Below the pieces are notes generated by a model. It made no database searches. It was given only the letters and a program-made list of their open reading frames with translations, and was not told where the DNA came from. A DNA stretch of 64,000 bases from Bryobacteraceae bacterium. GTDB lineage: Bacteria > Acidobacteriota > Terriglobia > Bryobacterales > Bryobacteraceae. Positions within the stretch are counted from its first letter, which is position 1; the number at the start of each line of letters is the position of its first letter. Shown here piece by piece: positions 33,575 to 54,812 of the stretch. The stretch covers positions 3,658,001 to 3,722,000 of the forward strand of contig BPGE01000001.1 of the NCBI GenBank assembly GCA_026002875.1, written 5' to 3'. A program made the position numbers and the translations under genes.

Positions 33575-34110
33575 CTTCCCCTCGCCCCTGCCCCCGGATT
33601 TCCCCTCGGCCTTGGCCGAGGGCTGCATCCCAACCGTGCCCCCCTCGGCCTTGCTCCCGGATTTCCCCTCGGCCTTGCCCCCGGATTTCCCCTCGGCCTT
33701 GGCCGAGGGCTGCATCCCAACCATGCCCCCCTCGGCCTTGCTCCCGGTTTTCCCCTCGGCCTTGGCCGAGGGCATCATCCCACCCGTGTCCCCCGGCGCA
33801 CTCTCCAGCGGGTTTCCCCTCGGCCTTGGCCGAGGGCTGCATCCCAACCATGCCCCCTCGGCCTTGCTCCCGGATTTCCCCTCGGCCTTGGGCCGAGGGC
33901 TGCATCCCAACCGTGCCCCCCTCGCCCTTGCCCCGAGTTTCCCCTCGGCCTTGGCCGAGGGCTGCATCCCAACCGTGCCCCCCTCGCCCTTGCCCCCGGT
34001 TTTCCCCTCGGCCTTGGCCGAGGGCTGCATCCCAACCGTGCCCCCCTCGCCCTAACCCCCGGCTTTCCCCTCGGCCTTGGCCGAGGGCTGCATCCCAACC
34101 GTGCCCCCCT
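33575..34110. repeat. Repeat array A: eight 20-bp palindromes at ~63-bp period
   Basis: The palindrome CCCTCGGCCTTGGCCGAGGG starts at 33603, 33690, 33753, 33817, 33879 (one extra G in the loop), 33942, 34005 and 34068. Steps are 87, 63, 64, 62, 63, 63 and 63 bp. Each copy is followed by CTGCATCCCAACCGTG (or a close variant) and by a degenerate half-copy (CCCCTCGGCCTTGCTCCCGG or similar); the first step contains one extra 24-bp half-copy. Stems of 8-9 bp enclose CTTG. The unit is near 63 bp, so reading frames stay open across the array and give Pro- or Gly-rich translations, which I regard as artefacts. It lies just after the coiled-coil gene. Confidence 0.95.
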
Positions 34111-34544
34111 GAGCCGTAGGCGCAGTCGCCGTGCAGCTCCGCACCTGCGCATTCCCGTCCACCCCAAATCCCCTCCTTTTTGGTTGTTTTTTTTCAACCG
34201 GTTCTGCCCCAGCCTGTGGCCCGCCCGCCGCCTCCATGGTCTCGTGACCGCAGCCCGGCATGGATTCCCCGCTCTCCTTCCCCCGTCCCGCTCGACGGCA
34301 GCCTCCCGGTGCCCGTGCGCGCAACTGCATTTTTACGAAACGAACCGAAAAACAAATAACTCAGATCAAATCAACAATTTACATATACACCTCGCAGAGC
34401 CGGCCGCAGAACGCTTCCAACACCCGGCGCCCGACTCTTCTCCCGCCGCCCGCGAACCGTGTCTGAACCCCTGCCTGTCTCCGTGGCCGCTCTTGTCCCG
34501 CCCCGCCCCGCAGTGATAGATTTGCGCCTGACCCGTTTCATCCC
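34111..34544. other. Gene-free, partly AT-rich intergenic region
   Basis: This stretch holds no convincing gene. GGTTG and CAACC (34182-34199) flank eight T residues and could form a weak hairpin. An AT-rich block at about 34330-34395 contrasts with the GC-rich surroundings and could hold promoter or protein-binding sites for the MFS gene. TAGATT at 34517-34522 is a candidate -10 hexamer with a 22-nt gap to the MFS ATG. No DnaA box was seen by eye. Confidence 0.5.
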
Positions 34545-35873
34545 ATGCGCCTCAACGCCACGCTCATCAAGTCCACCGTCGTCGCCGCCCTCGGCGGGCT
34601 GCTGTTCGGCTTCGACACCGCTGTCATCGCCGGAGCGACCAGCGCTCTCGAAAGGCTGTTCTCCCTTTCTCCCGCCATGCTCGGCTTCACGGTCGCCAGC
34701 GCCCTCTACGGCACCATCATCGGCGCCATGTTCGCCGGCATCCCCGGCGACCGCTACGGGCGCCGCGCCAGCCTGCGCCTGCTCGCCGTCTTCTACTTCG
34801 TCTCCGCGCTCGGCTGCGCGCTCGCCTGGGACTGGACCTCCTTCGTCGTCTCGCGCTTCCTCGCCGGTCTCGCCATCGGCGGTTCCTCCGTCCTCGGCCC
34901 CATGTACATCGCCGAAATCGCCCCCGCCCGCTGGCGCGGCCGCCTCGTCGGCTTCTTCCAGTTCAATATCGTCTTCGGCATCCTGCTCGCCTACTTCTCC
35001 AACTACCTGATCGGGCTCGCCGGCTTCGGCGGCGCCGAATGGCGCTGGAAACTCGGCGTCGCCGCCGCGCCCGCCGCCCTCTTCCTGTTCATGCTCTACA
35101 CGATCCCCGAAAGCCCCCGCTGGCTCGTCAAGAGGCGGCGCGTCTCCGAAGCCGGCGAAGTCCTCCGCCTCAACGGCGAGCCCGACTGGGAAAAAGAACT
35201 GGCCGACATTGTCGCCTCCGTCGACGCCGAACACGGCCACGCCGACGAGCCGCTCTTCCAGCGCAAATACCGCCTTCCCGTCTTCCTCGCCATCGCCATC
35301 GGCATGTTCAACCAGCTGAGCGGCATCAACGCCATCCTGTATTACCTCAACGACATCTTCGCCCGCGCCGGCTTCGACAAGGTCTCCGGCGACCTGCAGG
35401 CTGTCGCCGTCGGCTTCACCAACCTCGTGGCCACCATCATCGCCATGAGCGTCATCGACAGAATCGGACGCAAGAGCATGCTGCTCGTCGGCAGCGTCGG
35501 CTGCGCCGCCAGCCTCGCCGGCGTTGCATGGATCTTCTCCACCCAGGCGCACCAGCATCTGCTCGTCTGGCTGCTCGTCTCCTTCATCGCCTTCTTCGCC
35601 TTCTCGCAGGGCGCCGTGATCTGGGTCTACCTCAGCGAAATCTTCCCCACGCGCGTCCGCGCCAAAGGCCAAAGCCTCGGCAGCTTCACCCACTGGGCCA
35701 TGAACGCCATCATCAGCGGCATCTTCCCCGTCATCGCCGCCTCGTCCGGCGCCGCGCCCTTCGTCCTGTTCGCCGCCATGATGGCCGTGCAGTTCTTCGT
35801 CGTGCTCTTCCTGTTCCCCGAAACCAAAGGCCACACGCTCGAGGAAATGCAGCACCGCCTCGGCATCGAGTGA
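34545..35873 (+). CDS. MFS sugar porter (XylE/GalP-type)
   Basis: This 442-residue transporter has twelve predicted helices and the full set of sugar-porter signatures: G-G-L-L-F-G-F-D-T-A-V-I-A-G near the start, D-R-Y-G-R-R between helices 2 and 3, P-E-S-P-R-W-L after helix 6, N-Q-L-S-G-I-N-A-I-L-Y-Y in helix 7, and P-E-T-K-G-H-T-L-E-E-M at the C-terminus. It would bring a monosaccharide into the cell by proton symport. The adjacent DUF1080 gene, 33 bp downstream, suggests use of sugars released from glycans, but the substrate is not shown. Confidence 0.93.
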   Translation: MRLNATLIKSTVVAALGGLLFGFDTAVIAGATSALERLFSLSPAMLGFTVASALYGTIIGAMFAGIPGDRYGRRASLRLLAVFYFVSALGCALAWDWTSFVVSRFLAGLAIGGSSVLGPMYIAEIAPARWRGRLVGFFQFNIVFGILLAYFSNYLIGLAGFGGAEWRWKLGVAAAPAALFLFMLYTIPESPRWLVKRRRVSEAGEVLRLNGEPDWEKELADIVASVDAEHGHADEPLFQRKYRLPVFLAIAIGMFNQLSGINAILYYLNDIFARAGFDKVSGDLQAVAVGFTNLVATIIAMSVIDRIGRKSMLLVGSVGCAASLAGVAWIFSTQAHQHLLVWLLVSFIAFFAFSQGAVIWVYLSEIFPTRVRAKGQSLGSFTHWAMNAIISGIFPVIAASSGAAPFVLFAAMMAVQFFVVLFLFPETKGHTLEEMQHRLGIE

Positions 35874-35891
35874 ACCCGCCGCGGGCTGTGT

Positions 35892-35897
35892 TAGAGT
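35892..35897 (+). promoter_or_regulatory. Putative -10 hexamer of the DUF1080 gene
   Basis: TAGAGT ends 9 nt before the ATG at 35907, with no clear ribosome-binding site. It would give the gene its own short-leader transcript. Confidence 0.3.
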
Positions 35898-35906
35898 GCC
35901 CCTGTC

Positions 35907-36542
35907 ATGCTGTTCCGCAACCTGCTTCTCTGCGCCCTGATCTGCGCCGCCGCCTGCGCCGCCGACTGGATCGACCTGACCCCGCCCGACACGCCGCTCG
36001 GCAAGGAAGTCCCCGGTTGGACGCGCATCCCCATTCCGCCCGTCGGACCCGTCAACTCCGCTCTGCAGTGGAAAGTCGACGCCGCCTCGAAGACCATCCT
36101 CTGCACCGGACAGGGCGGCCACGAGTGGCTCCGCTTTGACAAAGAATTCGGCGACTTCGTCCTCGAACTCGAGTGGCGCTTCACGCCGCGCGAGGGCGAA
36201 ACGAAGTACAACTCCGGCATCGGCGTCCGCCTGTCCCGCTACGGCGAACTCTGGACGCAGGCGCAGACCGGACTCGCCGGCGGCTGGCTGTTCGGCGTCA
36301 ACCTCGTCAATGGCGAGATGACCCGCATCAACCTGCGCGACCAGATGACCCAAAACCGCGTCAAGCCTGCCGGCGAGTGGAACCGGTATGAAATCCGCGC
36401 CGAGGGCGGAACCATCACTCTCTCGGTCAACGGCGCTGTGGTCAGCACGATGACCGGCGTCGCCCTGCGCAAAGGCTACATCGGACTGGAAGCGGAAGGC
36501 TTCGAAATCGCCTTCCGCAATCTCCGCATCCGCCCGCTGTAG
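35907..36542 (+). CDS. DUF1080 (3-keto-disaccharide hydrolase-like) secreted protein
   Basis: This 211-residue protein has a signal peptide (MLFRNLLLCALICAAACA) and a single jelly-roll domain of the DUF1080 type, recognised by F-G-D-F-V-L-E-L-E-W-R-F, Y-N-S-G-I-G-V-R, W-N-R-Y-E-I-R-A-E-G-G-T-I-T-L-S-V-N-G and the closing I-A-F-R-N-L-R-I-R-P-L. Some family members hydrolyse 3-keto-glycosides; others are only carbohydrate-binding. The gene follows a sugar transporter on the same strand. The plus-strand base composition changes from C-rich to G-rich just after this gene. Confidence 0.88.
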   Translation: MLFRNLLLCALICAAACAADWIDLTPPDTPLGKEVPGWTRIPIPPVGPVNSALQWKVDAASKTILCTGQGGHEWLRFDKEFGDFVLELEWRFTPREGETKYNSGIGVRLSRYGELWTQAQTGLAGGWLFGVNLVNGEMTRINLRDQMTQNRVKPAGEWNRYEIRAEGGTITLSVNGAVVSTMTGVALRKGYIGLEAEGFEIAFRNLRIRPL

Positions 36543-36593
36543 CCCCCCGGCGGATCCCCGCTCTGCCGCCGCGCGGGACGCCGGCCGCTCCCG

Positions 36594-38957
36594 CTAGCAC
36601 CAGACCAGGGCGCAGGCCTGGATCTGAATGCCGGTCTTCTGCGGCTTGAGCCGGACGGTTTCGAACGCGTCTTCGCCGTACGCGGGCAGCGATGCGATTT
36701 CCCGCTGACATTGCGCGGAGAGTTCGTCGAAATCGGCCTGGAGTTTTTCGACCTTTTCGGCGGCCATGGCGACGTCGCTGCGCTCTTTTCCGAGACGCGT
36801 GGCCGCCCGGGCGGCGGTGCCGAGCCTGCCGACGCTGGAAGCGCTGATGGTCCTGCGGCCGGCGAACATGCCCAGCAGCGACGCGCCGACCGAGATCATC
36901 GTCTGCATGGTCTGCGCCGAGGCCTGCTGCTTCTCCTGCGCCAATTTCAATTCTTCGGAGCGTATTTTCTCAAGGAGAGCTTTGCGCCTCGACTCGTATT
37001 TGTCCGTGATTTTCGCCATCTCCCGGTCGCGCATCTCGCGCGCAGCCTGCTGAACGCGGATGCGGAAGTCGCGCTCGCTCTCGCCGGGGCGGGCGACCAG
37101 GCCGGTGGATGGGCTGCGCAGCAGCTCGAGCGCGCGGTTCTGATACAGCCAGAGCGCGAAGTCTTTCTGCCACTGCGCGTAGTTCTTCGGCTGCGCCGCG
37201 GCTGGTGGAAGCGGGGCGAATTCGGCGCCCTCGACAGGCCGCTGCAGCAGGTCTTCCAGCCGCAGATCGGACTCTTCGGCTTTCGACCAGTCGACGGGAA
37301 CCGGACCCTCCGTGATCGGACACGTGAAAGCCGCCTTTTCGACGAAATCGATGCCGAGCTTCTTGTCCGTGTACTGAAGCTGAGCCACGCCGAACAGGCG
37401 CGGTTCGTACTGGAGAACGCCGCCGCTCAATCGCGCGAAGTATTGCGGCACGCCCGGCGGAACAACCGGCGGAGCGGAGGACTGCGGCATCGCGCGCGCA
37501 GTCACGGTGACGCTTGCGGCGGCCATGGGACGCATCATCGAAGGCGTCTCCGCCGCCGGCGCGGCCTGCTGCTTCAGGCGGCGCAGTTCGGCGCGCGACA
37601 TCGGACCGCGGAGATAGCTGAGCGTCCAGCGGGTCTGGAACAGCACCGGCTGATCGAGATGGACGTTGTTCATCAGGAACACGCGGCTGCCCAGGCTGGC
37701 CAGCAGCCTCTCCATCTCCTGCCGGTTGAAGCTCGCGCCGGAAGCGGCGGAAGCGCCTTCGAGACCTTCGAGCACGCGCGCCTTGTCGCGCTCGGTCTGC
37801 AGGCGGCCGATGAACCAGGTGCCCGTGTTGGCGAGGCCCTTGTAATCGAGATCGACGGGATTCTGCGTGGCCAGCACGACGCCGAGACCGAACGCGCGCG
37901 CCTGCTTGAGCAGCGTCAGCAGCGGCTGTTTGGATGGCGGGTTGGCCACCGGCGGGAAGTAGCCGAAGATCTCGTCCATGTAGAACAGCGCGCGCAGGCT
38001 GGACGTGCCGCTCTGCCGCCGCACCCAGGCCAGAACCTGATTGAGCAGCAGCGAGACGAAGAACATGCGCTCGGCGTCGTTCAGGTGCGCGATCGAGAAG
38101 ATGCAGATGCGCGGCTTGCCGGCGGGCGTCCACAGCAGCGAATCGATGTCGAGCGGCACGCCTTCGCGCCACGCTTCGAAGCCCGGCGCCGCAAGCAGGT
38201 TGTTGAGCGCCATGGCGAGTGCGAAGCGCTCTCTGGACGGATAGAACGATTCGAGATCGAGCACGCCAAGCCGCGCGAACGGCGGCTGCTGGACCTGCTG
38301 GATGAGCGCGCCGAGATCGAGGCTGCGGCCCTCGCGCCACGCGGCGTCGAGAATGGCGGACAGCAGGACGTGCTCGCGCGACTGCACCGGATCGGCATTG
38401 ACGCCCGCGAGCGCGAGCAGCGAAGTGGCCGTTCCGGATACGCGGTCCCGCAGGGCTTCGCGGTCGCCGGGTTCTTCCTCTGAAGGAGCGTCGAATGACC
38501 GGAGCACGGAGACCGGAATGCCGGCGTCGGAGCCGGGCGTGTAGACGGCGAACTCGCAGGCTTCGCGGAGGCGGCGGATGCGCTCCGGCCCCTGATCCCA
38601 CTGTTCGAGCCCCGTGCGCCATTTCCCCGCCTCGGCGGCGGCGAAGGCGGCCGGGTCCATGCCTTTCGCGCGCGCTTCATCGGCGTTGATCCACGGAGCG
38701 AATTCCTCGGGAGAAAGATTGGGGAACGTGAGCAGGAGATTCGAAAGGTCGCCCTTGGGATCGACGACGATGGCAGGAATGGAATCGATGGCGGCCTCTT
38801 CAAGCAGCCCGATGCAGAGGCCTGTTTTGCCGGAGCCGGTCATGCCGACGCAGACGGCGTGGGTGACGAGATCTTTGCTGCGGTAAAGAAAGATTTCTCC
38901 TCCGGGATGGAGCCGACCGAGATAGAAGGCGCCAAGCTTTTCGTAGTCGGGAAGCAT
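36594..38957 (-). CDS. HerA-like ATPase (DUF87 family)
   Basis: This 787-residue protein has a HerA/DUF87 ATPase core: Walker A G-M-T-G-S-G-K-T-G at about 38-46, a Walker B-like F-Y-M-D-E-I-F-G-Y near 333-341 and A-T-Q-N-P sensor residues near 372. The C-terminal third is charged with a coiled coil (about 630-690) and a short hydrophobic segment T-M-I-S-V-G-A-S-L-L-G-M-F. HerA-like proteins are usually hexameric DNA translocases, but this long subgroup has no assigned role and no NurA-type nuclease is adjacent. TAGAAT ends 7 nt before the ATG; its first three bases are the stop codon of the upstream Arc-type gene. Confidence 0.85.
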   Translation of the reverse strand: MLPDYEKLGAFYLGRLHPGGEIFLYRSKDLVTHAVCVGMTGSGKTGLCIGLLEEAAIDSIPAIVVDPKGDLSNLLLTFPNLSPEEFAPWINADEARAKGMDPAAFAAAEAGKWRTGLEQWDQGPERIRRLREACEFAVYTPGSDAGIPVSVLRSFDAPSEEEPGDREALRDRVSGTATSLLALAGVNADPVQSREHVLLSAILDAAWREGRSLDLGALIQQVQQPPFARLGVLDLESFYPSRERFALAMALNNLLAAPGFEAWREGVPLDIDSLLWTPAGKPRICIFSIAHLNDAERMFFVSLLLNQVLAWVRRQSGTSSLRALFYMDEIFGYFPPVANPPSKQPLLTLLKQARAFGLGVVLATQNPVDLDYKGLANTGTWFIGRLQTERDKARVLEGLEGASAASGASFNRQEMERLLASLGSRVFLMNNVHLDQPVLFQTRWTLSYLRGPMSRAELRRLKQQAAPAAETPSMMRPMAAASVTVTARAMPQSSAPPVVPPGVPQYFARLSGGVLQYEPRLFGVAQLQYTDKKLGIDFVEKAAFTCPITEGPVPVDWSKAEESDLRLEDLLQRPVEGAEFAPLPPAAAQPKNYAQWQKDFALWLYQNRALELLRSPSTGLVARPGESERDFRIRVQQAAREMRDREMAKITDKYESRRKALLEKIRSEELKLAQEKQQASAQTMQTMISVGASLLGMFAGRRTISASSVGRLGTAARAATRLGKERSDVAMAAEKVEKLQADFDELSAQCQREIASLPAYGEDAFETVRLKPQKTGIQIQACALVWC

Positions 38958-38964
38958 GAGCGCT

Positions 38965-38970
38965 ATTCTA
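38965..38970 (-). promoter_or_regulatory. Putative -10 hexamer of the HerA-like gene, overlapping a stop codon
   Basis: TAGAAT on the minus strand ends 7 nt before the HerA-like ATG. Its TAG is also the stop codon of the upstream Arc-type gene, so the two genes are packed with no spare sequence. Confidence 0.4.
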
Positions 38971-39147
38971 GGACGATTTCTCGCCGCGGGGCTTCTCGTC
39001 CTTGAGGCGGCGCTGCTCGCGCAGAGCCTTGCGGAGGAGGAATTCGATCTGGGCGTTGAGGGAGCGCAGGTCGTCGTCGGCCCATTTCTTCAGCGCATCG
39101 AGCACGTCGGCGTCGATCCGCAACAGGAATGACTTGCGCTCCCCCAT
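38968..39147 (-). CDS. Arc-type ribbon-helix-helix DNA-binding protein
   Basis: This 59-residue gene encodes a protein that starts MGERKSFLLRID and continues with a W-A-D-D-D-L-R-S-L-N-A-Q-I-E-F-L-L-R-K-A-L segment, the layout of Arc/MetJ-type ribbon-helix-helix repressors: one beta strand followed by two helices, then a basic and acidic tail. It lies 15 bp after the SPFH gene on the same strand and is probably cotranscribed. A strong palindrome overlaps the promoter of the pair, which makes autorepression by this protein a natural hypothesis. The ATG at 39145-39147 has GGAA about 8 nt upstream. Confidence 0.85.
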   Translation of the reverse strand: MGERKSFLLRIDADVLDALKKWADDDLRSLNAQIEFLLRKALREQRRLKDEKPRGEKSS

Positions 39148-39162
39148 CGATGACAGTTCCGC

Positions 39163-40044
39163 TTACTGGTAGATGGTGCCGGTGTTCAGGACCGGCTGCG
39201 CGGCGGCTTCTCCGCAGAGGACGACGAGGAGATTCTGCACCATGGCGGCGCGCTGTTCGCCGTCAAGCTGGATGACATTCTTGCTGGCGAGCATCTCGAG
39301 CGCCATCTCCACCATGCCCACGGCGCCCTCGACGATCTTCTGCCGCGCGGCGATGACAGCGGACGCCTGCTGACGGCGCAGCATGGCGGCGGCGATTTCT
39401 GGCGCATAGGCGAGATAGCTGATCCGCGCTTCGACGACTTCGACGCCCGCGACCGCGAGCCGCTCCTGGATTTCGTCTTTCAGGCGCGAGGCGACCTCCG
39501 CGGTGCTGCCGCGCAGAGAGACCTGATGATCGTCGTGGGCGTCGTACGGATAAGCGGAGGCCAGGTTGCGCACGGCGGCTTCGCTCTGCACGTGCACGTA
39601 GTTCTCGTAGTTGTCCACCTGGAAGATCGCTTCCGCCGTGTCGACGACTTTCCAGACGACGACGGCGGCGATCTCGATGGGGTTGCCGTCCTGGTCGTTG
39701 ACCTTCATCTTCGAGGTCTCGAAGTTCCGGACGCGCAGCGAGACGTGCTTCTTTCCGTAGAAGGGGTTCGCAAAGCGCAGGCCCGGAGCGTTCACCGTGC
39801 CGACGTACTTGCCGAACAGCGTCAGCACGACGCCCTGGTTGGGCTGCACGGTGAAGAAGCCCGCCCAGCAGATCATGTCGGCCAGCAGCACGACGATGCA
39901 GACGAAGATCACGGGGCCGCGCATTTCCGCCGGGGCGTGCTTGGCCGCCCAGATGATGCCGCCGATGGCGGCGGCGAAGATGACAAGCACGAGCAGGAGA
40001 ACGGGGATGCCGTTCCACGCTTCGATGACGCGCTCTTTCAGCAT
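39163..40044 (-). CDS. SPFH/Band 7 domain membrane protein
   Basis: This 293-residue protein has two N-terminal hydrophobic segments (about 13-33 and 43-63) and a Band 7/SPFH domain (about 65-240), seen in F-T-V-Q-P-N-Q-G-V-V-L-T-L-F-G-K-Y, P-G-L-R-F-A-N-P-F and the V-S-L-R-V-R-N-F-E-T strand, followed by a helical region rich in Ala/Glu that would oligomerise. SPFH proteins form membrane microdomains and often control proteases. GGAGGA lies 9 nt before the ATG. Pairing with an Arc-type regulator suggests tight control, perhaps in response to membrane stress; that is inference. Confidence 0.92.
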   Translation of the reverse strand: MLKERVIEAWNGIPVLLLVLVIFAAAIGGIIWAAKHAPAEMRGPVIFVCIVVLLADMICWAGFFTVQPNQGVVLTLFGKYVGTVNAPGLRFANPFYGKKHVSLRVRNFETSKMKVNDQDGNPIEIAAVVVWKVVDTAEAIFQVDNYENYVHVQSEAAVRNLASAYPYDAHDDHQVSLRGSTAEVASRLKDEIQERLAVAGVEVVEARISYLAYAPEIAAAMLRRQQASAVIAARQKIVEGAVGMVEMALEMLASKNVIQLDGEQRAAMVQNLLVVLCGEAAAQPVLNTGTIYQ

Positions 40045-40086
40045 GGGGTTGGTCCTCCAGTTTTCGGGCGAGTCCTGCGGGCCTCG

Positions 40087-40122
40087 CTACCAAAATGATA
40101 TCACTTTGGTAGCCTGTGTCAA
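40087..40122 (-). promoter_or_regulatory. Promoter with overlapping 26-bp operator palindrome (SPFH-Arc)
   Basis: On the minus strand TTGACA (40122-40117) and TATCAT (40100-40095) are separated by 16 bp, a good sigma-70-type promoter about 50 bp before the SPFH ATG. The palindrome CTACCAAA(A)TGATATCA(C)TTTGGTAG spans 40087-40112 with one mismatched pair and covers the -10 box and part of the spacer. Binding there would block RNA polymerase, so this is a likely operator. The Arc-type protein encoded in the same operon is the first candidate to bind it. Confidence 0.7.
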
Positions 40123-40151
40123 GAGAAAAGCGCATTCCTCCCGGTGCAATG

Positions 40152-40163
40152 TGACTGGAGTCA
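40152..40163 (+). promoter_or_regulatory. Short palindrome upstream of the NO reductase gene
   Basis: TGACTGGAGTCA is a perfect 5-bp inverted repeat with a 2-bp centre, 64 bp before the NO reductase ATG. It could be a regulator site, but it does not match the FNR/DNR or NorR consensus that I know. Confidence 0.2.
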
Positions 40164-40227
40164 TGGAGCGCGGGCGGGCCTGAGGCTACAACTGGGACTG
40201 GCAGAGCCAGAGGAAAGGAGCAGTGCG

Positions 40228-45177: not shown

Positions 45178-47292
45178 TCAGGGGAGTTTGTGGAGCCCTT
45201 CCCAACGGACGGTCCATCTGCCGTCGTTGGGAAAGCCGGGGGCGTGGCGCGCAGGGGCGCCGTCCCAGCCGGCGGCCATCATGGCGGCGGCGGCGAGCAG
45301 CCCGCCGTTGCCGGGCAGGTAGATGGTCAGGCCGGGGCGCTGGTAGTTGTGGCCATTCGGGTGATAGCGGTTTTTCGGGGTGTCCATCAGGAGAAACTCG
45401 ATGGCGAGGGCGGGTTCGCCGACGCGGGCGGCAGTCATGGCGGCGAGAGGGTAGTCCCAACCCCAGGTGTGCTCCCACTGCCAGGTTTCGCGGACTTTGA
45501 GCAGAGTCCGGCGCATGGTTTCGGAGTCGGCCATGCCGCCAGGCAGGAGGCCGAGGGCGCCGAGGAGGCTGGGATGGTCGCGGCGTTTGGAGGGGTCGCG
45601 GAACGTCTCCGGGTCTGATTCGGCGTTGACGTAGAGCCCGCCGACAACGGGGAGAGGAGAGAGCCGGCTGAGAACGTCGTCCCAGTCTCTGCGGCGGGTC
45701 AGACCGAGGCGCTCGCGCCAGATCTGGGCGGTGGCGAGCCCCCAGCGCCAGTATTCGAGTTCAAAAGCGGGATTGAAGGTCGTGCGGGGCGGATGGAGTT
45801 CCTGGGCGGGGATGAGCGGGGGGCCGAGGACGTAACGGTTCTTTCCGGGGTCGAGGCGCGCAAAGGAGGCCATGAAATCGGCCGTTTCAGCGACGAGATC
45901 GATCCACTGGCGGAGGAGGCGATCGTCTTTGCGGACGCGGTAGACGAGTTCGAGCAGATGGATCAGGTGGGGCTGCTGCCAGACAAGCAGGGGGCCGATG
46001 GCCGACGGGCTTTCGCGGCCATCGGGGCCGACCATCTTGGGCCAGCGGAGGCCGCGGTAGCCCTGGCGTGCGGCGGTCTCGCGAGCGAGCGGAGCGATGC
46101 GGCGGTACCAGGGGAGGCTTTTTTCGAGAAGTTCCGGGCGTCCCCATAGAGGGAAATGGGCGGCGTGCCACCAGTGCATTTCGAGGTGGAATTTACCGAA
46201 CCAGCTGTTGAATGCGAGGCCGGTTTCCTGCGGCGGCATGGAACCGGAACACTGGATGGCGGCCAGGTATTGCGAGAGAACGATGCGCCGTTCGAGCTCT
46301 TTTGCGCGGGGATCGGCGGACTGAGAGAGGTCGATGGCGCCGCCGCTCCGCCAGAATCGAGCCCAGTACCGCCGGGAAGCAGCTGCGGTTTCCTCGACCG
46401 ATGGTGTCGCAGCGGCAGGCGGATTCAGGGAGAATTCCGCAGTGAATTCAGCCCTGTTTCCGCTGAATTCAAGGACAAAAGCATGATCCGCATCGCGGCG
46501 GAGGGTGCCGCTGCCGGACCAGCGGAGGCGCGTGAAATACCGGGTTTCGTCGAGGGACCGCTCGAGCAGGGCATCCGAGCGCGAGGACGCGCGGATCCGG
46601 GTGGCGTGCCTGCCGGGGCTGGTCCAATCGGCGGGCTCGCCGGTATGGACGCCGCTGCCGTAGGGGAATTCGATTCTGATCCTGACGGGCGGGGAGGCGG
46701 CGCCGGTGCGCATGATGCGGACGGCGAGCAGATCCCGGACGGGGTGGACCCAGGTGCGCACCTCGAACGGCTGACCGGCGAAGGTGAAGCGGCTTTCGAG
46801 CGTTCCGGTCCAGAGATCGAGGCGCTGTTCGATGGCCTGGAGGTCCTTGATCGCTGCGGGGCGGCTGTCCATTTCCAAGTCGAAGCCGATGCGGGCGAGA
46901 CCAAGGCGGTGAGGATTCTGGCGGAGCCATTCGGCGGCAGGCGTGCGAATGTTGGTGGGGTATTGCACGGGGCGCCCGGCGGTGTCATAGGGTTCGAAGG
47001 TCTGCTCGAGGCGGTAGCCGGCGGGATTCGGGAAAGAGTGCCAGCCCCACTGAGAGAGGGTGGAGAGAGGAATGAAATCACGGTAAAAGTCGGGGAAGGA
47101 CTGCAGGCCGGTGACGTCGGCGGTGAAGGCGAATTCGCCGTTGCCGACGGAGAGCGGGGCCCAGGGATCGGCTGCGCGGAGGACGGGGTTGTGGCGGCGG
47201 ACAAGGGCCTGCCGGTCGATGGGCTGAGCCGATAGAGGGCTGAGCAGGATGATCAGCGGGGAAACGAAGAGCCGGAGGAGCTGTGGCGGCAT
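45178..47292 (-). CDS. Secreted six-hairpin glycoside hydrolase-like protein
   Basis: This 704-residue protein has a signal peptide (MPPQLLRLFVSPLIILLSPLSA). An N-terminal beta-sandwich (about 40-310) is followed by an alpha/alpha barrel (about 325-690) with W-F-G-K-F-H-L-E-M-H-W-W-H, W-W-H-A-A-H-F-P-L-W-G-R, R-W-P-K-M-V-G-P-D-G and W-E-H-T-W-G-W-D-Y-P, a layout seen in GH65/GH95-like and related families. The exact family and substrate cannot be fixed. Acidic residues in the barrel could be catalytic but were not matched to a known pair. The ATG at 47290-47292 lacks a good ribosome-binding site; starts further upstream would extend into unlikely sequence. Confidence 0.75.
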   Translation of the reverse strand: MPPQLLRLFVSPLIILLSPLSAQPIDRQALVRRHNPVLRAADPWAPLSVGNGEFAFTADVTGLQSFPDFYRDFIPLSTLSQWGWHSFPNPAGYRLEQTFEPYDTAGRPVQYPTNIRTPAAEWLRQNPHRLGLARIGFDLEMDSRPAAIKDLQAIEQRLDLWTGTLESRFTFAGQPFEVRTWVHPVRDLLAVRIMRTGAASPPVRIRIEFPYGSGVHTGEPADWTSPGRHATRIRASSRSDALLERSLDETRYFTRLRWSGSGTLRRDADHAFVLEFSGNRAEFTAEFSLNPPAAATPSVEETAAASRRYWARFWRSGGAIDLSQSADPRAKELERRIVLSQYLAAIQCSGSMPPQETGLAFNSWFGKFHLEMHWWHAAHFPLWGRPELLEKSLPWYRRIAPLARETAARQGYRGLRWPKMVGPDGRESPSAIGPLLVWQQPHLIHLLELVYRVRKDDRLLRQWIDLVAETADFMASFARLDPGKNRYVLGPPLIPAQELHPPRTTFNPAFELEYWRWGLATAQIWRERLGLTRRRDWDDVLSRLSPLPVVGGLYVNAESDPETFRDPSKRRDHPSLLGALGLLPGGMADSETMRRTLLKVRETWQWEHTWGWDYPLAAMTAARVGEPALAIEFLLMDTPKNRYHPNGHNYQRPGLTIYLPGNGGLLAAAAMMAAGWDGAPARHAPGFPNDGRWTVRWEGLHKLP

Positions 47293-47360
47293 TCCGTGAC
47301 CATGATGCCATGCGCGGGACCGCACCCACGAAAATCTCTATCCGGACCGGGCACCGCGAG

Positions 47361-47940
47361 GGGGCCGCTCGCTTCGGTGGTCCCTGCGAACACGGTTGGG
47401 ATGCAGCCCTCGGCCAAGGCCGAGGGGAAATCCGGGGGCAAGGCCGAGGGGAGGCCCTCAGGAGAGGGCGCTGCGGGGCACGGCTTGGGGCCGCTCGCTT
47501 CGGTGGTCCCTGCGAACACGGTTGGGATGCAGCCCTCGGCCAAGGCCGAGGGGAAATCCGGGGGCAAGGCCGAGGGGAGACGCGCAGGAGAGGGCGCTGC
47601 GGGGCACGGCTCGGGGCCGCTCGCTTCGGTGGTCCCTGCGAACACGGTTGGGATGCAGCCCTCGGCCAAGGCCGAGGGGAAGTCCGGGGGCAAGGCCGAG
47701 GGGAAACCCGCAGGAGAGGGCGCTGCGGGGCACGGCTCGGGGCCGCTCGCTTCCGTGGTCCATGCGAACACGGTTGGGATGCAGCCCTCGGCCAAGGCCG
47801 AGGGGAAGCCCGTTGGGAGGGCGCGGGAAACACGGTTGGGATGCAGCCCTCGGCCAAGGCCGAGGGGAAATCCGGGGGCAAGGCCGAGGGGAAATCCGGG
47901 GGCAAGGCCAAGGGGAAACCCGCAGGAGACAGCGCTGCGG
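47361..47940. repeat. Repeat array B: five 20-bp palindromes, 126-bp unit
   Basis: The palindrome CCCTCGGCCAAGGCCGAGGG starts at 47407, 47533, 47659, 47785 and 47847; steps are 126, 126, 126 and 62 bp. Each is preceded by CACGGTTGGGATGCAG and followed by GGAARYCCG. The 126-bp unit also has a half-copy (GGGGGCAAGGCCGAGGGG) and a constant block beginning GGGCCGCTCGCTTCG. The last step uses a different linker, GTTGGGAGGGCGCGGGAAA, which recurs almost unchanged in array C. Polarity on the plus strand is opposite to array A and the same as C. It fills most of the gap upstream of the glycoside hydrolase and beyond the terminator of the TIGR03437 gene. Confidence 0.95.
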
Positions 47941-48077: not shown

Positions 48078-48098
48078 GGAACCGGATCCGGGCCCGTT

Positions 48099-51000
48099 TT
48101 ACTGAGCCTGGCCGATGGGGATGACGGAGGGCTGGCCGTAGAAGGCCGTTCCGCCGGGAGGCGCCGCCACGAGACCGAGAGGACGGTCGCCGAGCTGGGC
48201 ATTTTCGGGGATCTTGAAGAAGACCTCGTAGATGCCGATCAGGTTTTCAGCGAGCTTGGCCTCGATGACTTCGACGCCGGCGTTGTCGATACCGACGGCG
48301 ACAGTGGCGGTGACCTTCTGGTCAGGACGCCCGACGCGGTTGGTTTCGGCCAGAGGCGTGGCCTGGCCGAGGCCGATGGCGTACATGCGGACGATCTCGC
48401 CGCGGCGCGCCGGCGTGGCCTTGGTGACGACCAGACCGTCGGAGCGGATGACGACGGCGGCGCGGCGTCCGTCGATGGTGTCTTCGATGATGCCGGGGGA
48501 GAGCGCCGTGACGGGCAGGGTCACCGAGGTGACGATTCCGTCGACGGAGACCCGGGCTTCGACCGTCGTGCCGCTGATCTCGTACGGCACCTGGATGAGA
48601 GCCGACTCGGTCTGCCCTTCCTTCGCAATCCAGTAAATGGGCGCGAAGAAGGAAGCAGAGCCGGAGCGGAACTCGACGACGAGTCCGCGGAAGGTCTGCG
48701 GGAGCCGTCCGGCGAAGATGTTGGCGACGGCGACGTCAGTCACGTTCTTGGCGATGCCGCCGCCGGTGAGAAGGACGAGCGCGCCGGGGGCGACAGAACC
48801 GGGAGCGCCGGTGGCGTAGTTCCGGAAGCTGGAGGCCGTGATGGCCGGCCCCGGAACAATGGACTGAAGAGTGAAGCTGACCGGCGTAAGACCGGCAACG
48901 GACGCCGTCACAGTGATTGTGCCGGCACTCGCCCCGGCGGTGACGGTGACCTGAGCGCGGCCGTCGGCGCCAGTGGGTGTCGAGCTGGCGCTGAGGGTGC
49001 CGGGACCGGAGATGCTCCAGGTGACGGGGACGCCGGCAAGCGGCGCATTCTGGGCATCGACAACCTGGACGACGAGCGGCGCAGGAAAGACGGAATTGAT
49101 GGGGATGCCCGTCTGCCCGTCGCCGGAGATTTTCTGGAGCGAGGTGGCTGTGGACTCGACGGTCACGGTAAAGGTAGCGGCGAGGTCGCCCGCACGCACG
49201 GTGACCTGGAACGTGCCCGCGATGTTGCCAAGGCGGACGCGGGTGGAGACGCGGCCATTCGAGTCCGCCGTGGAGACAGTCTCAATGAGAGACAGAGCGG
49301 AGGGGTTGGAGACGCTCCAGACGACCGATGTGCCGGGGAGAGGATTGCCGCCGGCGTCGACGATGCGGGCGACGAGAGGCAGCGAGAGGGTGGTCCCCGT
49401 TTTTCCGGACTGGTTGTTGCCGGAGACGATGACAGGCGGCACGGGGTCGCCGGGGAGGACAATCAGCGTGATGCCCGGGAAGTCGAATCCGCCGCCGACG
49501 GTAGCCGTCAGGAACGTGGTTCCGATCTTTCCGGACGCGACGAGCGTGCAGGAGACGATCCCGTCGTCTCCCGAGAGTGAGGTGCCCTCCTGGCAGGTGG
49601 CCACAGGACCTGCGGCGGGATCCTGGTTCTCGGTCACCGCGGTGAGGCCGACTTTCGGGATGGGCATGCCAGCCATGCCGCCCTGGCCAAAGCCGGAGAG
49701 AATCCTGAAGCGGAGCGCATCTGGCGCCGGCTGGCCCAACTTGACCTCGATGATCCTGTCGGAAGGCTCCGGGGTCAGCATCTGGACGGACGGGAAGCCG
49801 AGATCGTTGGCGGGGAACTGGTTGATGAAGAAGGTGACGTTGCCGATGTCGCTGACAGCCTCGACCGTCCCCTGGACGAAGGACTGTCCGAGCGGGAAGC
49901 TGCCGAGGAAGAAGAAGTTGACCTGCGCCTTGCCGTCGGAATCGGTGATGGTCTGGGTGGGCGAGGTGAAGTTGAGGTTGGTCGTGGTCGTCTGCCAGAT
50001 CACCTGTTTGCCGGCCATGGGCTTTCCGTCGGCGTCGAGCGCCTGGACGACGAGCGGGATGTTGATGGTGCCGTAACGGGTGAGCTGGCCGTCGCCGGCG
50101 AGCTTGACGAGCCGCGCCCTGTCCGGGGTTCCGCCGCCGCCGCCCCCGCCGCCGCTCTGGCCGACGACCGTGGAGGTGAACTGGATGGGAGGCAGATTGC
50201 CGAGAGTGGCTTCGACGGTGAAGGGACCAGCGGCTTCAGGCGCGACCACGTCGACGTAAGTCCAGCCGTAACGGTTGGTGGCGTTGGCAGGCTGAAGGAT
50301 CTGGACGCCGGAGGTGAGGGCGCGGAAATTCACCGTGCGGCCCTTGACGGGACGGCCGGCGGAATCGATCACCCGCAGGTAATACCGGATAGTCGAAGAG
50401 GGGCTGACGTTGGCCTGACCGCCCCCGAAGCCATACAGGTTGCCAGCGATGGCCGTGGAGGGGGCGCTGGCCCACTGGATTTTCCCGGGCGTGATGATGC
50501 GGGAGGGCGTGGCGCCGATGCCAGCGAGGGGGAAGCGGGAGAGGGTGCCGCCGGAGTCGATGTAGAAGAGATACAGGGCGTTGGGGTACTCGTCCGAGGT
50601 AGCGATGCTTTCGATATTGGTGAGAGGAATCTGGTTGACGCGGAAGTCATTCACCGTGATTCCGGCACCAAGGACGAAGTTGAAATCAAAGACCTGCTGA
50701 ATGGCCGCGGAGTAGCCGATGGCGCGGGTCTCGCGGACCGGAATGAGGCGGTCAAGCAGCTGGATGGCGTTGCCGAAGGGGTTGCTGACGGTGGCAACCA
50801 CCGGCGCACCGCCGACGAACGCCCCGGCGGGACTGTTCTGACTGCGCAACTGAAAGTCGAAGATGCCGATGGAATGGGCTCCCTGAACGCGGTTGGCGGC
50901 GAAGGCGCGGGTTCCGGAGCCGGGGGAGAAGTAGAGCTTGCCCGGGTGAGTGAACGTGCCTCCGGCGAGGGAGGTGCGAGCCACTTCATCGAAGGGCGGG

Positions 51001-51650
51001 AGGGCGCGGAGTTCAATGAGGTTATTGAGAGCGGTGACGAAGACTCTGCCGAAAGGAGCGACGCTGAGGGCGAGCCGGGTGTCGCTGAACGTGCCGGCGA
51101 TGACGCTCGCGTTGAGCCCCTGCCAGTTGCTGGTCTGGATGGGCATCAGGAGATTCGGAGCGCAGAGGACGAGGAGGTACTGACCGTCGAGGGTCAACTC
51201 GGCATCGATCGGGTCGCCGGGCAGGGGGATGGCGGCGTTGACCACCTGCTCGGACTCGATGCGGACCATGTAGACGAGCGACGGGTTGCGGGTGACGACG
51301 TAGAGATGGGCGCCGTCAGGAGAGAGAATTCCCTGGACAGGGGTGCCAGCCCCGAGACCGATGGTCCGCGGTTGCGAGAGGGCGCCGCCGCTGATGGTGA
51401 CAAAGGTGACGGAGGACTGGGAGCTTTCGGAGACCACCATCAACTTTGCGCCGTCATCGCTGAGGAGAACCTGGGCGGCTTCCTGGGGAACAGGGACGGA
51501 TCCCACGGGGCGCAGTTCTTCATCGAGCACCGTCAGAGCAGGCGCCGCAGGAGTGGAGGACAGGCTGGTGATGTAGCGGCCCTGCGCAGTGGCAGCCAGG
51601 GTCAACGTCACCATCGCCGCAGTGAGAAGACTCAAACGGAACCAGGACAT
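48099..51650 (-). CDS. Secreted propeller and Ig-like protein with TIGR03437 C-terminus
   Basis: This 1183-residue protein has a signal peptide (MSWFRLSLLTAAMVTLTLAATAQG), an N-terminal region with repeated strands suggestive of a YVTN-like propeller (about 25-400), several Ig-like/invasin-like domains with the V-V-W-x-V-S-x-P and G-R-A-x-V-T-V-T patterns (about 420-950), and a C-terminal domain with N-Y-A-T-G-A-P-G-S-V-A-P-G and Y-A-I-G-L-G-Q-A-T-P, characteristic of the TIGR03437 family of Solibacter relatives. A poly-Gly stretch follows residue 500. It is probably a surface or extracellular adhesion protein. GAGG lies 6 nt before the ATG at 51648-51650. Confidence 0.88.
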   Translation of the reverse strand: MSWFRLSLLTAAMVTLTLAATAQGRYITSLSSTPAAPALTVLDEELRPVGSVPVPQEAAQVLLSDDGAKLMVVSESSQSSVTFVTISGGALSQPRTIGLGAGTPVQGILSPDGAHLYVVTRNPSLVYMVRIESEQVVNAAIPLPGDPIDAELTLDGQYLLVLCAPNLLMPIQTSNWQGLNASVIAGTFSDTRLALSVAPFGRVFVTALNNLIELRALPPFDEVARTSLAGGTFTHPGKLYFSPGSGTRAFAANRVQGAHSIGIFDFQLRSQNSPAGAFVGGAPVVATVSNPFGNAIQLLDRLIPVRETRAIGYSAAIQQVFDFNFVLGAGITVNDFRVNQIPLTNIESIATSDEYPNALYLFYIDSGGTLSRFPLAGIGATPSRIITPGKIQWASAPSTAIAGNLYGFGGGQANVSPSSTIRYYLRVIDSAGRPVKGRTVNFRALTSGVQILQPANATNRYGWTYVDVVAPEAAGPFTVEATLGNLPPIQFTSTVVGQSGGGGGGGGTPDRARLVKLAGDGQLTRYGTINIPLVVQALDADGKPMAGKQVIWQTTTTNLNFTSPTQTITDSDGKAQVNFFFLGSFPLGQSFVQGTVEAVSDIGNVTFFINQFPANDLGFPSVQMLTPEPSDRIIEVKLGQPAPDALRFRILSGFGQGGMAGMPIPKVGLTAVTENQDPAAGPVATCQEGTSLSGDDGIVSCTLVASGKIGTTFLTATVGGGFDFPGITLIVLPGDPVPPVIVSGNNQSGKTGTTLSLPLVARIVDAGGNPLPGTSVVWSVSNPSALSLIETVSTADSNGRVSTRVRLGNIAGTFQVTVRAGDLAATFTVTVESTATSLQKISGDGQTGIPINSVFPAPLVVQVVDAQNAPLAGVPVTWSISGPGTLSASSTPTGADGRAQVTVTAGASAGTITVTASVAGLTPVSFTLQSIVPGPAITASSFRNYATGAPGSVAPGALVLLTGGGIAKNVTDVAVANIFAGRLPQTFRGLVVEFRSGSASFFAPIYWIAKEGQTESALIQVPYEISGTTVEARVSVDGIVTSVTLPVTALSPGIIEDTIDGRRAAVVIRSDGLVVTKATPARRGEIVRMYAIGLGQATPLAETNRVGRPDQKVTATVAVGIDNAGVEVIEAKLAENLIGIYEVFFKIPENAQLGDRPLGLVAAPPGGTAFYGQPSVIPIGQAQ

Positions 51651-51747
51651 TGTTGCCTCTTTCAGGGAGATCTGGAAGGCAGCTTCTGCTTTGGAAGCGA
51701 GGAAGGGAACTAGGCACATTGTAGCACCACTTCCGCTGTTCGACAAA

Positions 51748-51781
51748 AAGGCCGGGGGGCCGATGGGCCCCCCGGCCTTTC
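51748..51781 (-). terminator. Rho-independent terminator of the 581-residue secreted protein gene
   Basis: AAAGGCCGGGGGGCC and GGCCCCCCGGCCTTT form a 15-bp stem with a 4-nt loop. On the minus strand it is followed by TTG and lies 25 bp after the stop of the upstream gene, in the gap before the TIGR03437 gene start. Confidence 0.8.
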
Positions 51782-51805
51782 ACCTGCAGAAAGTTTCTGC
51801 GGGGG

Positions 51806-53551
51806 TTACTGGTCCAACGCCTCCGAAGCGTTCCCGGCGTAGCGGGTGGTGAGACCGCCGCCGAGGATCAGAGCGATGTAGCCCTGGGCGAACTTGTTCG
51901 CGCCAAGGTCGCTGATGAAGGCGTAGCCGTGAGCGTACTGGAAGTTGCACCGGGCGATCATGTAGCCGGTGAACCCAGGCACGGGGTTGAGGTTCTGGGC
52001 GCTGTTGCCGCCGGACAACGTCATCAGCAGCTGACCGCCGGCCGGGATGGTGGCGGACGTCTGCGAGGTGTTACCCGGCGTGCCGTAGAAGAACAGCGTG
52101 CAGGTGCCGGTCTGGGCGGCCGTGTTGAACGGATCCACGGTCGTGTTGGAGATGGCGATGCCGGTGTCCCAGCCAGGGATGCTGGTCAGGAACGGGAACA
52201 GCAGCCGGGTCTCGCAAGCAACGATCGTGAAGGCCGTCGTCGCGGTCGGGTTCTGGTAGAAGCGCGGCACCGGAGCCGTGGACGAAGCCACGTCAACAGT
52301 GCTCAGAGGCGCGTAGCTGCCAGACACCGTGCCGGAACCCAGGGAGGGCAGACCGGAGTACCAGATGACCACCGGAACGTTCAGCGTCTCGGTGACGCCA
52401 GGGTTGGCGGCGGTGACTTCGTAGACCGCCGCGCCAGCGCCGCCCGTCAGAGAGACGAGGCCGTTGGCGGAGGCGGTGCTGCCGTCCACCGGCGAAGCCA
52501 GCAGCGTCAGCGTGGTGCCGGAACCGCTGGTGACCACCTGCGGCACGGCGACGTTGACGCCGGACGGGATGCCGGAGAACGTCAGGCGGAGACGGGTGGC
52601 CTGGGTGGCCTGGCCGGCGCCGCTGTTCAGGTAAGCCGCGCTGCCGGGCACGCCGCCCCAGAACATCGACTCAGTGTTGTAGATCTGGGTGAGGTCGTTC
52701 TGGTAAGGCGGGCCGTACGGAATGGTGGAGCCGGTACCGCCGCGGATACGGAAGGCGTTCGGGAACAGCTCAATAAAGCTGGCCGTGAAGAACGCCGTAC
52801 CGGGAGGCAGGGTTCCGGGCAGAGGCAGCGGATTGGAGGAGGTGTTCCAAGCCAGCGGGCTGGCGCACTGGTTGAAGTTGGCCGCGGTCGCGGAGAAGCG
52901 CAGACCGTTCTGGATGTAGCCGACAGCCAGGAACGGGCTGGTGATGGGCAGCGTCAGGGTGCCAGTGATGGACACGAAGATGTTCACCGGCGGGGGAATG
53001 AGGGAGGTGACGTTGCCACCGGTCGCCAGAGCCGCATTGACGCGGATGTTGACGAAGCGGAGCGTACGGACCGTGGTGGTGCCCGGCGGATCGAACGGGA
53101 TGTCGCGCCACTCAATGGCCTGGGCGTTGCCCGAGACCTGGTGAGCGAAGAACATGTTGCCGCAGGCGGCACCCGTGTAGGGAGCGACGCAGCCCGGAGC
53201 CTGGGGCGGAACGGGGAAGGTCGCCCAGACCTGGGCAGCCGGCGCCGGGTCGTCGATCAGCAGGGTCGCTTCAGAAGCGGTGGCCGAGCCGACCGCGATC
53301 AGCTTGCTCGTGATGTTGTAGCCGTTGGTGAACAGACGCACGTTGATGCGGGGCAGAGCCTGACCGGCAACAGTCGGCGTACCACCCTGGCAGGTGATGA
53401 ACGCCTGACCGACTTCTTCAGCCACGCCTTCCGCACGCAGCAGCGGCGGAGCGCCGCCGTTCAACGTGCAGTTCAAAGCCTGCGCACTGGCGATGCCGGA
53501 CACGAAGACCAACACAGCCAGGAGCAGGAGAGCTTTGCGAAAATCAACCAT
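51806..53551 (-). CDS. Secreted beta-rich protein of unknown function
   Basis: I recognise this 581-residue protein only as a type of secreted protein common in Solibacter relatives. It has a signal peptide (VDFRKALLLLAVLVFVSGIASAQA), four or more cysteines early in the chain (in L-N-C-T-L-N-G, I-T-C-Q-G-G, P-G-C-V-A-P and A-A-C-G-N), many Thr/Ser/Gly strands, and a C-terminal part with I-S-N-T-T-V-D-P and G-T-C-T-L-F-F-Y-G. The ATG at 53549-53551 is preceded by AAGGAGAAGGAA, and the frame upstream has poor coding character. A strong promoter, long leader and perfect terminator suggest high expression. Confidence 0.75.
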   Translation of the reverse strand: MVDFRKALLLLAVLVFVSGIASAQALNCTLNGGAPPLLRAEGVAEEVGQAFITCQGGTPTVAGQALPRINVRLFTNGYNITSKLIAVGSATASEATLLIDDPAPAAQVWATFPVPPQAPGCVAPYTGAACGNMFFAHQVSGNAQAIEWRDIPFDPPGTTTVRTLRFVNIRVNAALATGGNVTSLIPPPVNIFVSITGTLTLPITSPFLAVGYIQNGLRFSATAANFNQCASPLAWNTSSNPLPLPGTLPPGTAFFTASFIELFPNAFRIRGGTGSTIPYGPPYQNDLTQIYNTESMFWGGVPGSAAYLNSGAGQATQATRLRLTFSGIPSGVNVAVPQVVTSGSGTTLTLLASPVDGSTASANGLVSLTGGAGAAVYEVTAANPGVTETLNVPVVIWYSGLPSLGSGTVSGSYAPLSTVDVASSTAPVPRFYQNPTATTAFTIVACETRLLFPFLTSIPGWDTGIAISNTTVDPFNTAAQTGTCTLFFYGTPGNTSQTSATIPAGGQLLMTLSGGNSAQNLNPVPGFTGYMIARCNFQYAHGYAFISDLGANKFAQGYIALILGGGLTTRYAGNASEALDQ

Positions 53552-53816
53552 TTCCTTCTCCTTGTGAACTGTCGAATTTGAATTGATGAAGGGTCTCTTC
53601 AACCTGAGCCTCAGCGGAAGGGGAGATAGGAACCCATGCCCCCGGCAATTCCGGAAAAGTGCGGAGCGGAAAACCGTGATTTTCCGTTCTGCCTCCTCCG
53701 GTTCCTGCCGGTCTTCCTTGGTGGATTCCCATGTGCAATCGAAAATCTCTTGTTCTGTGCCTGCGGGATCCTGACCGAACTTTGAGTGCCGGGCCCTTCC
53801 GGGCACAGTCAGCACC
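53552..53816 (-). other. Long mRNA leader of the secreted protein gene
   Basis: About 260 nt lie between the predicted transcription start and the ATG. No gene is seen, although an open frame extends upstream. CGGAAAA and TTTTCCG (near 53667-53686) can pair across six bases. The leader could carry a regulatory structure; nothing I recognise as a riboswitch is present. Confidence 0.4.
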
Positions 53817-53846
53817 TTCATATCACCCTGCCAGACTCCCTGTCAA
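53817..53846 (-). promoter_or_regulatory. Sigma-70-like promoter of the 581-residue protein gene
   Basis: TTGACA (53846-53841) and TATGAA (53822-53817) are 18 bp apart on the minus strand. The -35 box is a perfect match to the consensus; the -10 box is weaker. It faces the secreted protein gene about 265 bp away. Confidence 0.5.
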
Positions 53847-54131
53847 GCGGCTACTTTTGCCGACGTGAAGCTGGCAGAGCGATGCCAGTACTCCCTACCC
53901 CCGCTATTTAAGCATGAAGCGTCCTGATTCGTCAAGACTTTCTCTTGGTTTGACCGATATTTGCGGCAGCCCAGAGGGCCGCGGGCGCGCCGGGCGGGCG
54001 GCGGGGCCGGCGAGGGGGACGCGGATCGCACGCGGTCATGCGGGGGTTTTCCGCTGTGGCGAGGGGGCCGGGAAGGGCGAATGCGCTGCCGGGAGAGCGA
54101 CGGAACTTGAGGGGCTGAGCGTCCCGGGGCC

Positions 54132-54812
54132 GGGGCACGGGCGGGATGCAGCCCTCGCGCAAGCGCGAGGGGAAGCCCGTTGGGAGGACGGGGGAAACAC
54201 GGTTGGGATGGAGCCCTCGGCCAAGGCCGAGGGGAAGCCCGCAGGAGAGTGCGCAGGGGGGGGCACGGGTGGGATGCAGCCCTCGCGCAAGCGCGAGGGA
54301 AGGCCCGCAGGAGAGGGCGCGGGGACACGGGCAGGATGCAGCCCTCGCGCAAGCGCGGTGGGAAGCCCGTTGGGAGGACGGGGGAAACACGGTTGGGATG
54401 GAGCCCTCGGCCAAGGCCGAGGGGAAGCCCGCAGGAGAGTGCGCAGGGGGGGCACGGGTGGGATGCAGCCCTCGCGCAAGCGCGAGGGGAGGCCCGCAGG
54501 AGAGGGCGCGGGGACACGGGCAGGATGCAGCCCTCGCGCAAGCGCGAGGGGAAGCCCGCAGGAGAGTGCGCAGGGGGGGCACGGGTGGGATGCAGCCCTC
54601 GCGCAAGCGCGAGGGGAAGCCCGTTGGGAGGACGGGGGAAACACGGTTGGGATGGAGCCCTCGGCCAAGGCCGAGGGGAAGCCCGCAGGAGAGTGCGCAG
54701 GGGGGGCACGGGTGGGATGCAGCCCTCGCGCAAGCGCGAGGGGAAGCCCGCAGGAGAGGGCGCGGGGACACGGGCAGGATGCAGCCCTCGCGCAAGCGCG
54801 AGGGGAAGCCCG
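54132..54812. repeat. Repeat array C: eleven palindromes with two stem variants
   Basis: Palindromes start at 54152, 54214, 54280, 54342, 54404, 54469, 54531, 54596, 54658, 54723 and 54785 (steps 62-66 bp). Three (54214, 54404, 54658) are CCCTCGGCCAAGGCCGAGGG and eight are CCCTCGCGCAAGCGCGAGGG; one of the latter (54342) has a damaged right arm. Both stem sides change together. Three linker types alternate and each precedes a fixed stem type, giving a higher-order unit of about 190 bp (linkers a, b, c) present three times with one extra b. The flank GGGATGCAG (or GGGATGGAG before the GGCC type) and the tail GGAAGCCCG match arrays A and B. It lies after the gspD stop. Confidence 0.95.

Follow-up and report, generated by a model that had tools for sequence, protein, structure and literature searches.

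Three hairpin arrays between genes

The window, a stretch of 64,000 nucleotides (64 kb) from the single-contig genome of a Bryobacteraceae bacterium, contains three arrays of a short palindromic repeat, which all lie between script-called genes (Table 1). An earlier note on this DNA had counted 24 copies in three intergenic arrays, with a unit of around 63 bp, or 126 bp in array B, and this description holds. Array A comprises seven copies that are recovered by the pattern and an eighth that has one additional G near 33880; its steps measure 62-64 bp apart from one of 87, and 24-bp part units occur inside it, near 33641-33701. The steps are 126, 126, 126 and 62 in array B and 62-66 bp in array C, where eight stems are of the CGC and three of the GGCC form and one palindrome is damaged. 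That the repeats exceed chance expectation is corroborated by the GGCC form of the 20-base palindrome, which occurs 15 times in the window, always exactly, against a mean of 0.08 in shuffled sequence with up to three mismatches allowed. The 37-base core that had been proposed (the palindrome with its two flanks) reads on the minus strand in A and on the plus strand in B and C. The common flanks were generally as described, with exceptions in some copies of A and C: GATGCAG is GATGATG in one A copy and GATGGAG in three C copies, AGGATG forms the start of some C copies and three A copies deviate from RYCCG.

The arrays are non-coding and, as had been pointed out, the steps of 62, 65 and 66 bp in array C fit no reading frame. 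Palindromic repeats at a regular spacing are reminiscent of a CRISPR array, but this candidate was rejected, as it had been before, since the linkers recur within the arrays, so that there are no unique spacers, and the steps vary. No Rfam family matched in the window at the gathering score. Regarding the neighboring genes, the domain scan of the gene that ends before array B used the longer frame 48099-51746, and the longer frame 51806-53821 of the gene after array C gave no Pfam match at E 0.001.

Table 1. Arrays, neighboring genes (positions in the window) and the transposase gene (position in the source genome, G000)
Feature	Position	Strand	Description
Gene before array A	32706..33536	+	276 aa; FliJ and tropomyosin matches below cut-offs
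Array A	33575..34110	+ (CTTG-loop strand +)	8 copies of the hairpin repeat
Gene after array A	34545..35873	+	MFS sugar transporter
Gene after array B (transcription order)	45178..47325	-	No Pfam match at E 0.001
Array B	47361..47922	- (CTTG strand -)	5 copies
Gene with 3' end before array B	48099..51530	-	Big_1 and invasin-like domains
Gene after array C (transcription order)	51806..53602	-	Start uncertain
Array C	54127..54812	- (CTTG strand -)	11 copies
Gene with 3' end before array C	54896..57331	-	Secretin; script-called start shorter, 57079
Y1 HUH transposase gene	G000:2167718-2168164		149 aa; frame open; catalytic motifs present

Structure of the repeat unit

In the orientation that shows the CTTG loop, the core consists of CGGRTTTCC, a stem, the loop CTTG or CTCG, the returning stem and GGCTGCATCCC, and the linkers usually start with CAACCGTG. 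Covariation of the stem is observed directly: its inner part showed 63 cells in which both sides had changed in a compensatory way, versus 24.2 in shuffles and 0-3 in the slid control. Among 62 distinct sequences, double changes were found in 22 and 26 at two of the pairs and in 7 and 8 at two more, and the outer four pairs showed none. Two of the five covariation measures were not above the shuffles (double-change pairs, 4 versus 3.6; pair types, 10 versus 9.3). Beside the CTTG palindrome the foot reads GCAG, or CGGR five bases back, and not CnGA.

A second hairpin accompanies part of the arrays. In 19 of 58 clusters a GCCGCGAGAGCGGGCGGTC-like sequence (up to six mismatches) lies 16-18 bases past the final copy, whereas such a sequence is present at 63 of 20000 random places and behind 24 of 393 copies that are not last in their cluster; its foot is CTGA in five of these 19 and lacks CTGA in the other 14. 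A similar sequence was found 45-51 bases before the first copy in 9 of 58 clusters (up to five mismatches), and the one in front of the array at 2296074 has a stem of five pairs with CAGA directly at its foot. This array (2296074-2298235) includes many units of 102-103 bases with a CTGA-foot hairpin, which are mixed with 63-base units without it, and the most plausible reading is therefore that the 63-base unit is a two-hairpin unit that was shortened, or that the long unit is an extended form.

Size and distribution of the family

The core is by no means confined to the three sites, a possibility that the earlier note had raised: with at most three mismatches allowed, the 37-mer is matched at 109 genomic places, versus none for the reversed control. 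The same note had considered a collapsed-repeat artefact of assembly; judged from the assembly, not from reads, the single contig of 4,863,736 bases (4.86 Mb) argues against it. The evidence for a family is direct, as a pattern that leaves the stem positions free and tolerates up to three mismatches recovered 523 copies in this genome (213 on the plus and 310 on the minus strand) and none in the reversed control. A covariance model gave at least 156 matches, with 150 of 11127 candidates scored.

Outside the source genome the repeat is scarce. Within the genus, the strict GGCC pattern gave no match, and counts thus refer to the wider pattern, with nine copies in G004, two in G003 and none in G001 and G002. 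Of the 60 other genomes searched, 55 had no copy and G007, G033 and G035 had one each, where the single matches in G007 and G035, both at three mismatches, may be due to chance. The same covariance model under stricter filters, applied to 61 genomes of the family, recovered matches in the source genome, G003 (seven, mostly weak) and G033, and one weak match each in G015, G020 and G063. Exact matches to a similar pattern in the GTDB-species collection, from which own and near records may be absent, were limited to three stretches in two Bryobacteraceae MAGs, one of which appears to be G004, given the identical matches. The exact 20-base palindrome had no match in the literature text that was searched.

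Signs of array growth in place

Signs of amplification in place are directly visible in the linkers. For 198 of 252 units the nearest linker was found in the unit's own array (31 ties), versus a mean of 3.8 and a maximum of 12 when the labels were permuted; the 252 were the testable ones out of 260 units in 41 clusters. The same spacers were compared in relatives for arrays B and C. The spacer of array C measures around 950 bases here, compared to about 66 in G002, 127 in G001 and 208 in G003; in G004 it is about 365 bases long and holds one copy with diverged flanks. The array is missing in all four relatives compared. For array B the spacer is around 800 bases, versus around 120 in G003 and G004, and the array is missing in both.

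Matching sites were further compared for eight copy-bearing stretches of G004 and G003. The site at 3587052-3588077 contains 24 copies versus one in G004, and that at 2246359-2247801 contains 23 versus four, with the proviso that G004 is a draft MAG in whose assembly repeats may have collapsed. At 1021885-1021899 there is no copy between the flanks that enclose two in G004 (one of them at five mismatches). The flanks of a fourth stretch are separated in the source genome, and the other four had no match within the stretches fetched from it. These comparisons indicate that seeds come and go in G000 as well as in G004. Together, the own-array linkers and the one versus 24 copies at a matching site suggest that the seeds were dispersed first and then multiplied in place.

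Genomic placement and orientation

Placement was described from 689,038 bases of sequence that surround known copies and Y1 genes and cover 445 of the 523 copies (452 at up to four mismatches) in 59 clusters. Four of the 59 overlap a script-called gene. One orientation per array is a direct observation: all 52 multi-copy clusters examined have a single orientation. Of 57 clusters with both neighbors, 19 lie between convergent, 35 between tandem and three between divergent genes, compared to 25, 58 and 29 of 112 background spacers of at least 150 bases. Divergent spacers are thus depleted (3/57 versus 29/112, p=0.0008), and the convergent excess has p=0.14. Within tandem gene pairs, 24 clusters are in sense and 11 in antisense orientation (p=0.04), and the antisense cases weaken the idea that arrays always follow the 3' end of a gene in sense.

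Both the avoidance of divergent, promoter-containing spacers and the sense bias would be in line with host regulatory RNA or DNA sites, in which selected hairpins at 3' ends stabilise the mRNA or stop transcription and tandem copies raise the dose, and five single copies indeed fold as RNA with -16.6 to -19.0 kcal/mol. Nevertheless, we consider such a role unlikely: a scan of array A (33500-34250) found no intrinsic terminator (hairpin plus T run), arrays B and C are missing from the same spacers of relatives, and the avoidance of promoters is equally expected from neutral insertions. Palindromes with conserved flanks that are spread over the chromosome might also be the binding sites of a chromosome-organising protein (gyrase, a nucleoid or a segregation protein). 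This is very improbable, considering that cluster orientation bears no significant relation to the chromosome half (22 to 13 and 9 to 15, p=0.07, suggestive only) and that species of the same genus have few or no copies.

A Y1 transposase gene among the repeats

The family is linked to a gene for a Y1 HUH transposase of 149 aa (Table 1). Three copies are located downstream of it (2168225, 2168293 and a composite one at 2168355), and upstream there are two copies and one that is split inside the palindrome by an IS1182-family element; in addition, a stretch of 58 bases is directly repeated on both flanks. The protein matches Pfam Y1_Tnp with 28.1 bits (cut-off 23) and a transposase family of PHROGs with 23.7 bits, and stays below the cut-off of both the NCBIfam RAYT model (NF047646; 19 of 80 bits) and the IS200 model (27.9 of 55). 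A search of solved structures gave no meaningful match. The protein contains the motifs HVH, WA and YVVEKQ. An alignment of relatives recovered 16 of 26 loci, two of them as fragments; H-x-H is conserved in 14 of these 16, and Y----Q likewise in 14. These motifs fit a class-3 TnpA-Y1 protein, an assignment made by motifs and not by a tree; compared to the class-3 consensus in the available text of PMC6006769, the protein has THVH for NHVH and K for E in the Y motif.

Among the scanned proteins of this genome the best match to the RAYT model is a Y1 protein encoded around 3427295 (78.6 of 80 bits), which has no copies of the family nearby. A second class-3-like protein of 164 aa is encoded at about 800884-801378, and its gene has three direct repeats that contain GCACGGTTGGGA on one flank and a fourth on the opposite flank. 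Of the 132 GCACGGTTGGGA-type 12-mers in the fetched stretches, 125 are near the motif, and four of the other seven are those around the 164-aa gene. The repeat-bearing relatives G003 (two copies) and G033 (one) have no close relative of the 149-aa protein, and the best one in G004 (nine copies) is at 35%.

Hairpins of the same type as the second hairpin also lie beside class-3-like genes. A GAGCCGCGACCGTGAGGGAGCGGTC-like hairpin lies within 450 bases of the gene at 12 of 27 loci (up to four mismatches), versus 0 of 540 shuffles, and at 16 of 27 when seven mismatches are allowed; the foot is CnGA in 25 of 26 matches. None of the three class-3-like loci of G000 itself matches this hairpin at seven mismatches, and of the 26 other loci one has a hairpin common to both sides, which is inverted. 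In G053, of the same order, the palindrome that flanks one class-3 gene has only eight matches, and a high copy number is therefore not general.

A pure satellite, meaning a hairpin-prone sequence that slippage amplifies and recombination disperses while the transposase is only a bystander, would account for linkers that resemble their own array, the 24-base part units, the steps of 254 and 303 bases and the exact 90-mers that are common to 11 cluster pairs. This explanation is quite unlikely, however, as 59 clusters in many spacers require a dispersal step and the Y1 gene has copies upstream as well as downstream. Of the 491 genes called in array-rich stretches, only 4 have a cluster within 700 bp in both directions; the Y1 gene itself is not counted among them, as the IS1182 element parts it from its upstream cluster.

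Relation to known repeat systems

The earlier note knew of no named family with this layout, but the anatomy and the gene linkage fit REP-like elements that are linked to Y1 proteins. According to the available parts of PMC6006769, class-3 TnpA-Y1 proteins are rare, occur in Planctomycetes, Acidobacteria and Proteobacteria, and are associated with hairpins that have a CnGA foot and with high-copy 'atypical secondary structures' (around 600 hairpin copies in Solibacter usitatus). Shared with this description are the H-x-H, WA and Y----Q motifs, the acidobacterial host and a gene flanked by hairpins with hundreds of copies genome-wide; a CnGA-type foot is seen on the second hairpin of some units, and not beside the CTTG palindrome. 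In contrast, the CTTG palindrome predominates here and most units are without the CnGA-type hairpin, and the arrays are head to tail, an arrangement that those parts do not mention for class 3.

Like the REP, BIME and REPIN sequences with their RAYTs, the repeats are extragenic palindromes that exceed 100 copies, occur singly as well as in clusters and are found close to a Y1 HUH gene. Unlike GTAG-tagged REPs, for which a role of GTAG in cutting was shown (PMC8266576, as available), they have GCAG at the foot on the CAAG strand and no GTAG (GT[AG]G), and the 149-aa protein is far below the cut-off of the RAYT model. Whereas BIMEs have REPs in alternating orientation (PMC2817692, in the text available), no mixed or inverted orientation occurs in the 52 clusters. 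The accessible text of PMC3733652 describes head-tail REP dimers, tandemly reiterated clusters and acidobacterial TIRYTs. The TIRYT/TIRtron elements resemble the present locus in having a Y1 gene with flanking repeats, possibly also scattered in the genome, but the repeats are direct here and not terminal inverted. On the whole, the family looks like a new one within a known, sparsely described class of bacterial repeats, and what sets it apart is that its arrays are strictly head to tail, that there is a two-hairpin unit and that copy states form a series from singleton to array.

Proposed origin and implications

We consider it likely that this is a class-3 REP-like hairpin family, with seeds dispersed by a Y1 protein and then multiplied in place. 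The hairpins, when single-stranded, would be the substrates that the class-3 Y1 HUH transposase of Table 1, or a relative, cuts, and the enzyme would move single seed copies into spacers. Replication slippage or unequal recombination may then have multiplied each seed on site in a head-to-tail manner, and such local multiplication would yield arrays of uniform orientation with array-typical linkers. The unit of around 102 bp contains the CTTG palindrome together with a second, class-3-type hairpin whose foot is CTGA or CAGA, and the commoner 63-bp unit lacks this second hairpin. No cell function is required to explain the arrays. There is a small chance that the class-3 Y1 transposase drives both the dispersal and the head-to-tail amplification, in which case growth would be enzymatic instead of based on slippage: two hairpins in direct orientation would serve as the left and the right end of a circle of single-stranded DNA, which would insert again next to its parent copy. 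If true, this would add a third mode to the transposition of IS200/IS605 and the spreading of REP/BIME sequences.

In the available text of PMC6006769, it is suggested that class-3 Y1 proteins may stand between IS200 transposases and REP enzymes in evolution, and further experiments on them are called for. The genome described here offers an open gene with class-3 motifs, flanking hairpins and 523 copies that range from singletons to an array of 24; given this series of copy states and the genomes of the same genus with few copies or none, dispersal and amplification are separately testable.

Insertions within the repeat palindromes

Palindromes of the 523-copy hairpin family in the subject genome (G000) were found to be interrupted by an IS1182-family element and by a short element of ~157 bases, the ends of both being alike. 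At one of these places (L110) the inserted form of the palindrome itself repeats, with a step of 303-305 bases. Two more matches to the IS ends, at G000 3032620 and 3687470, both lie outside the repeats and look like chance matches. The IS1182-family/short element looks like a palindrome-targeting IS.

Palindromes carrying an insertion (IS1182-family or ~157-base element)
Stretch	Position in G000
L041	2165824-2167547
L043	35088
L051	1705717
L110	2060107/2060412/2060715
L119	4805485
L108	1587078

Related loci and distribution among genomes

A further domain resembling the class-3 (TnpA-Y1 HUH) transposase is located at G000:2182253 (L077/L122), within a stop-free frame of 636 residues, and is flanked by a 56-base direct repeat of a different hairpin. 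Sequence similar to this hairpin repeat occurs in G004, a draft MAG of the same genus, in the spacer corresponding to the array C site. G053, of the same order, yielded nine matches to the class-3 protein across several contigs, several with flanking repeats, direct or inverted. The secretin gene contains a degenerate tandem repeat of 15-30 bases (window 55967-56114).

The flanks of one array, compared between L124 and L112 (G000:2242716-2251475), are 99.4% and 93% identical, whereas elsewhere the two species share ~69-87% identity in the stretches compared; this may reflect either mis-binning of the MAG contig or a recent exchange. The one exact repeat copy on a 14-kb contig of a MAG from another genus of the same family (L126, G033:C92:4589) may reflect either mis-binning or transfer.
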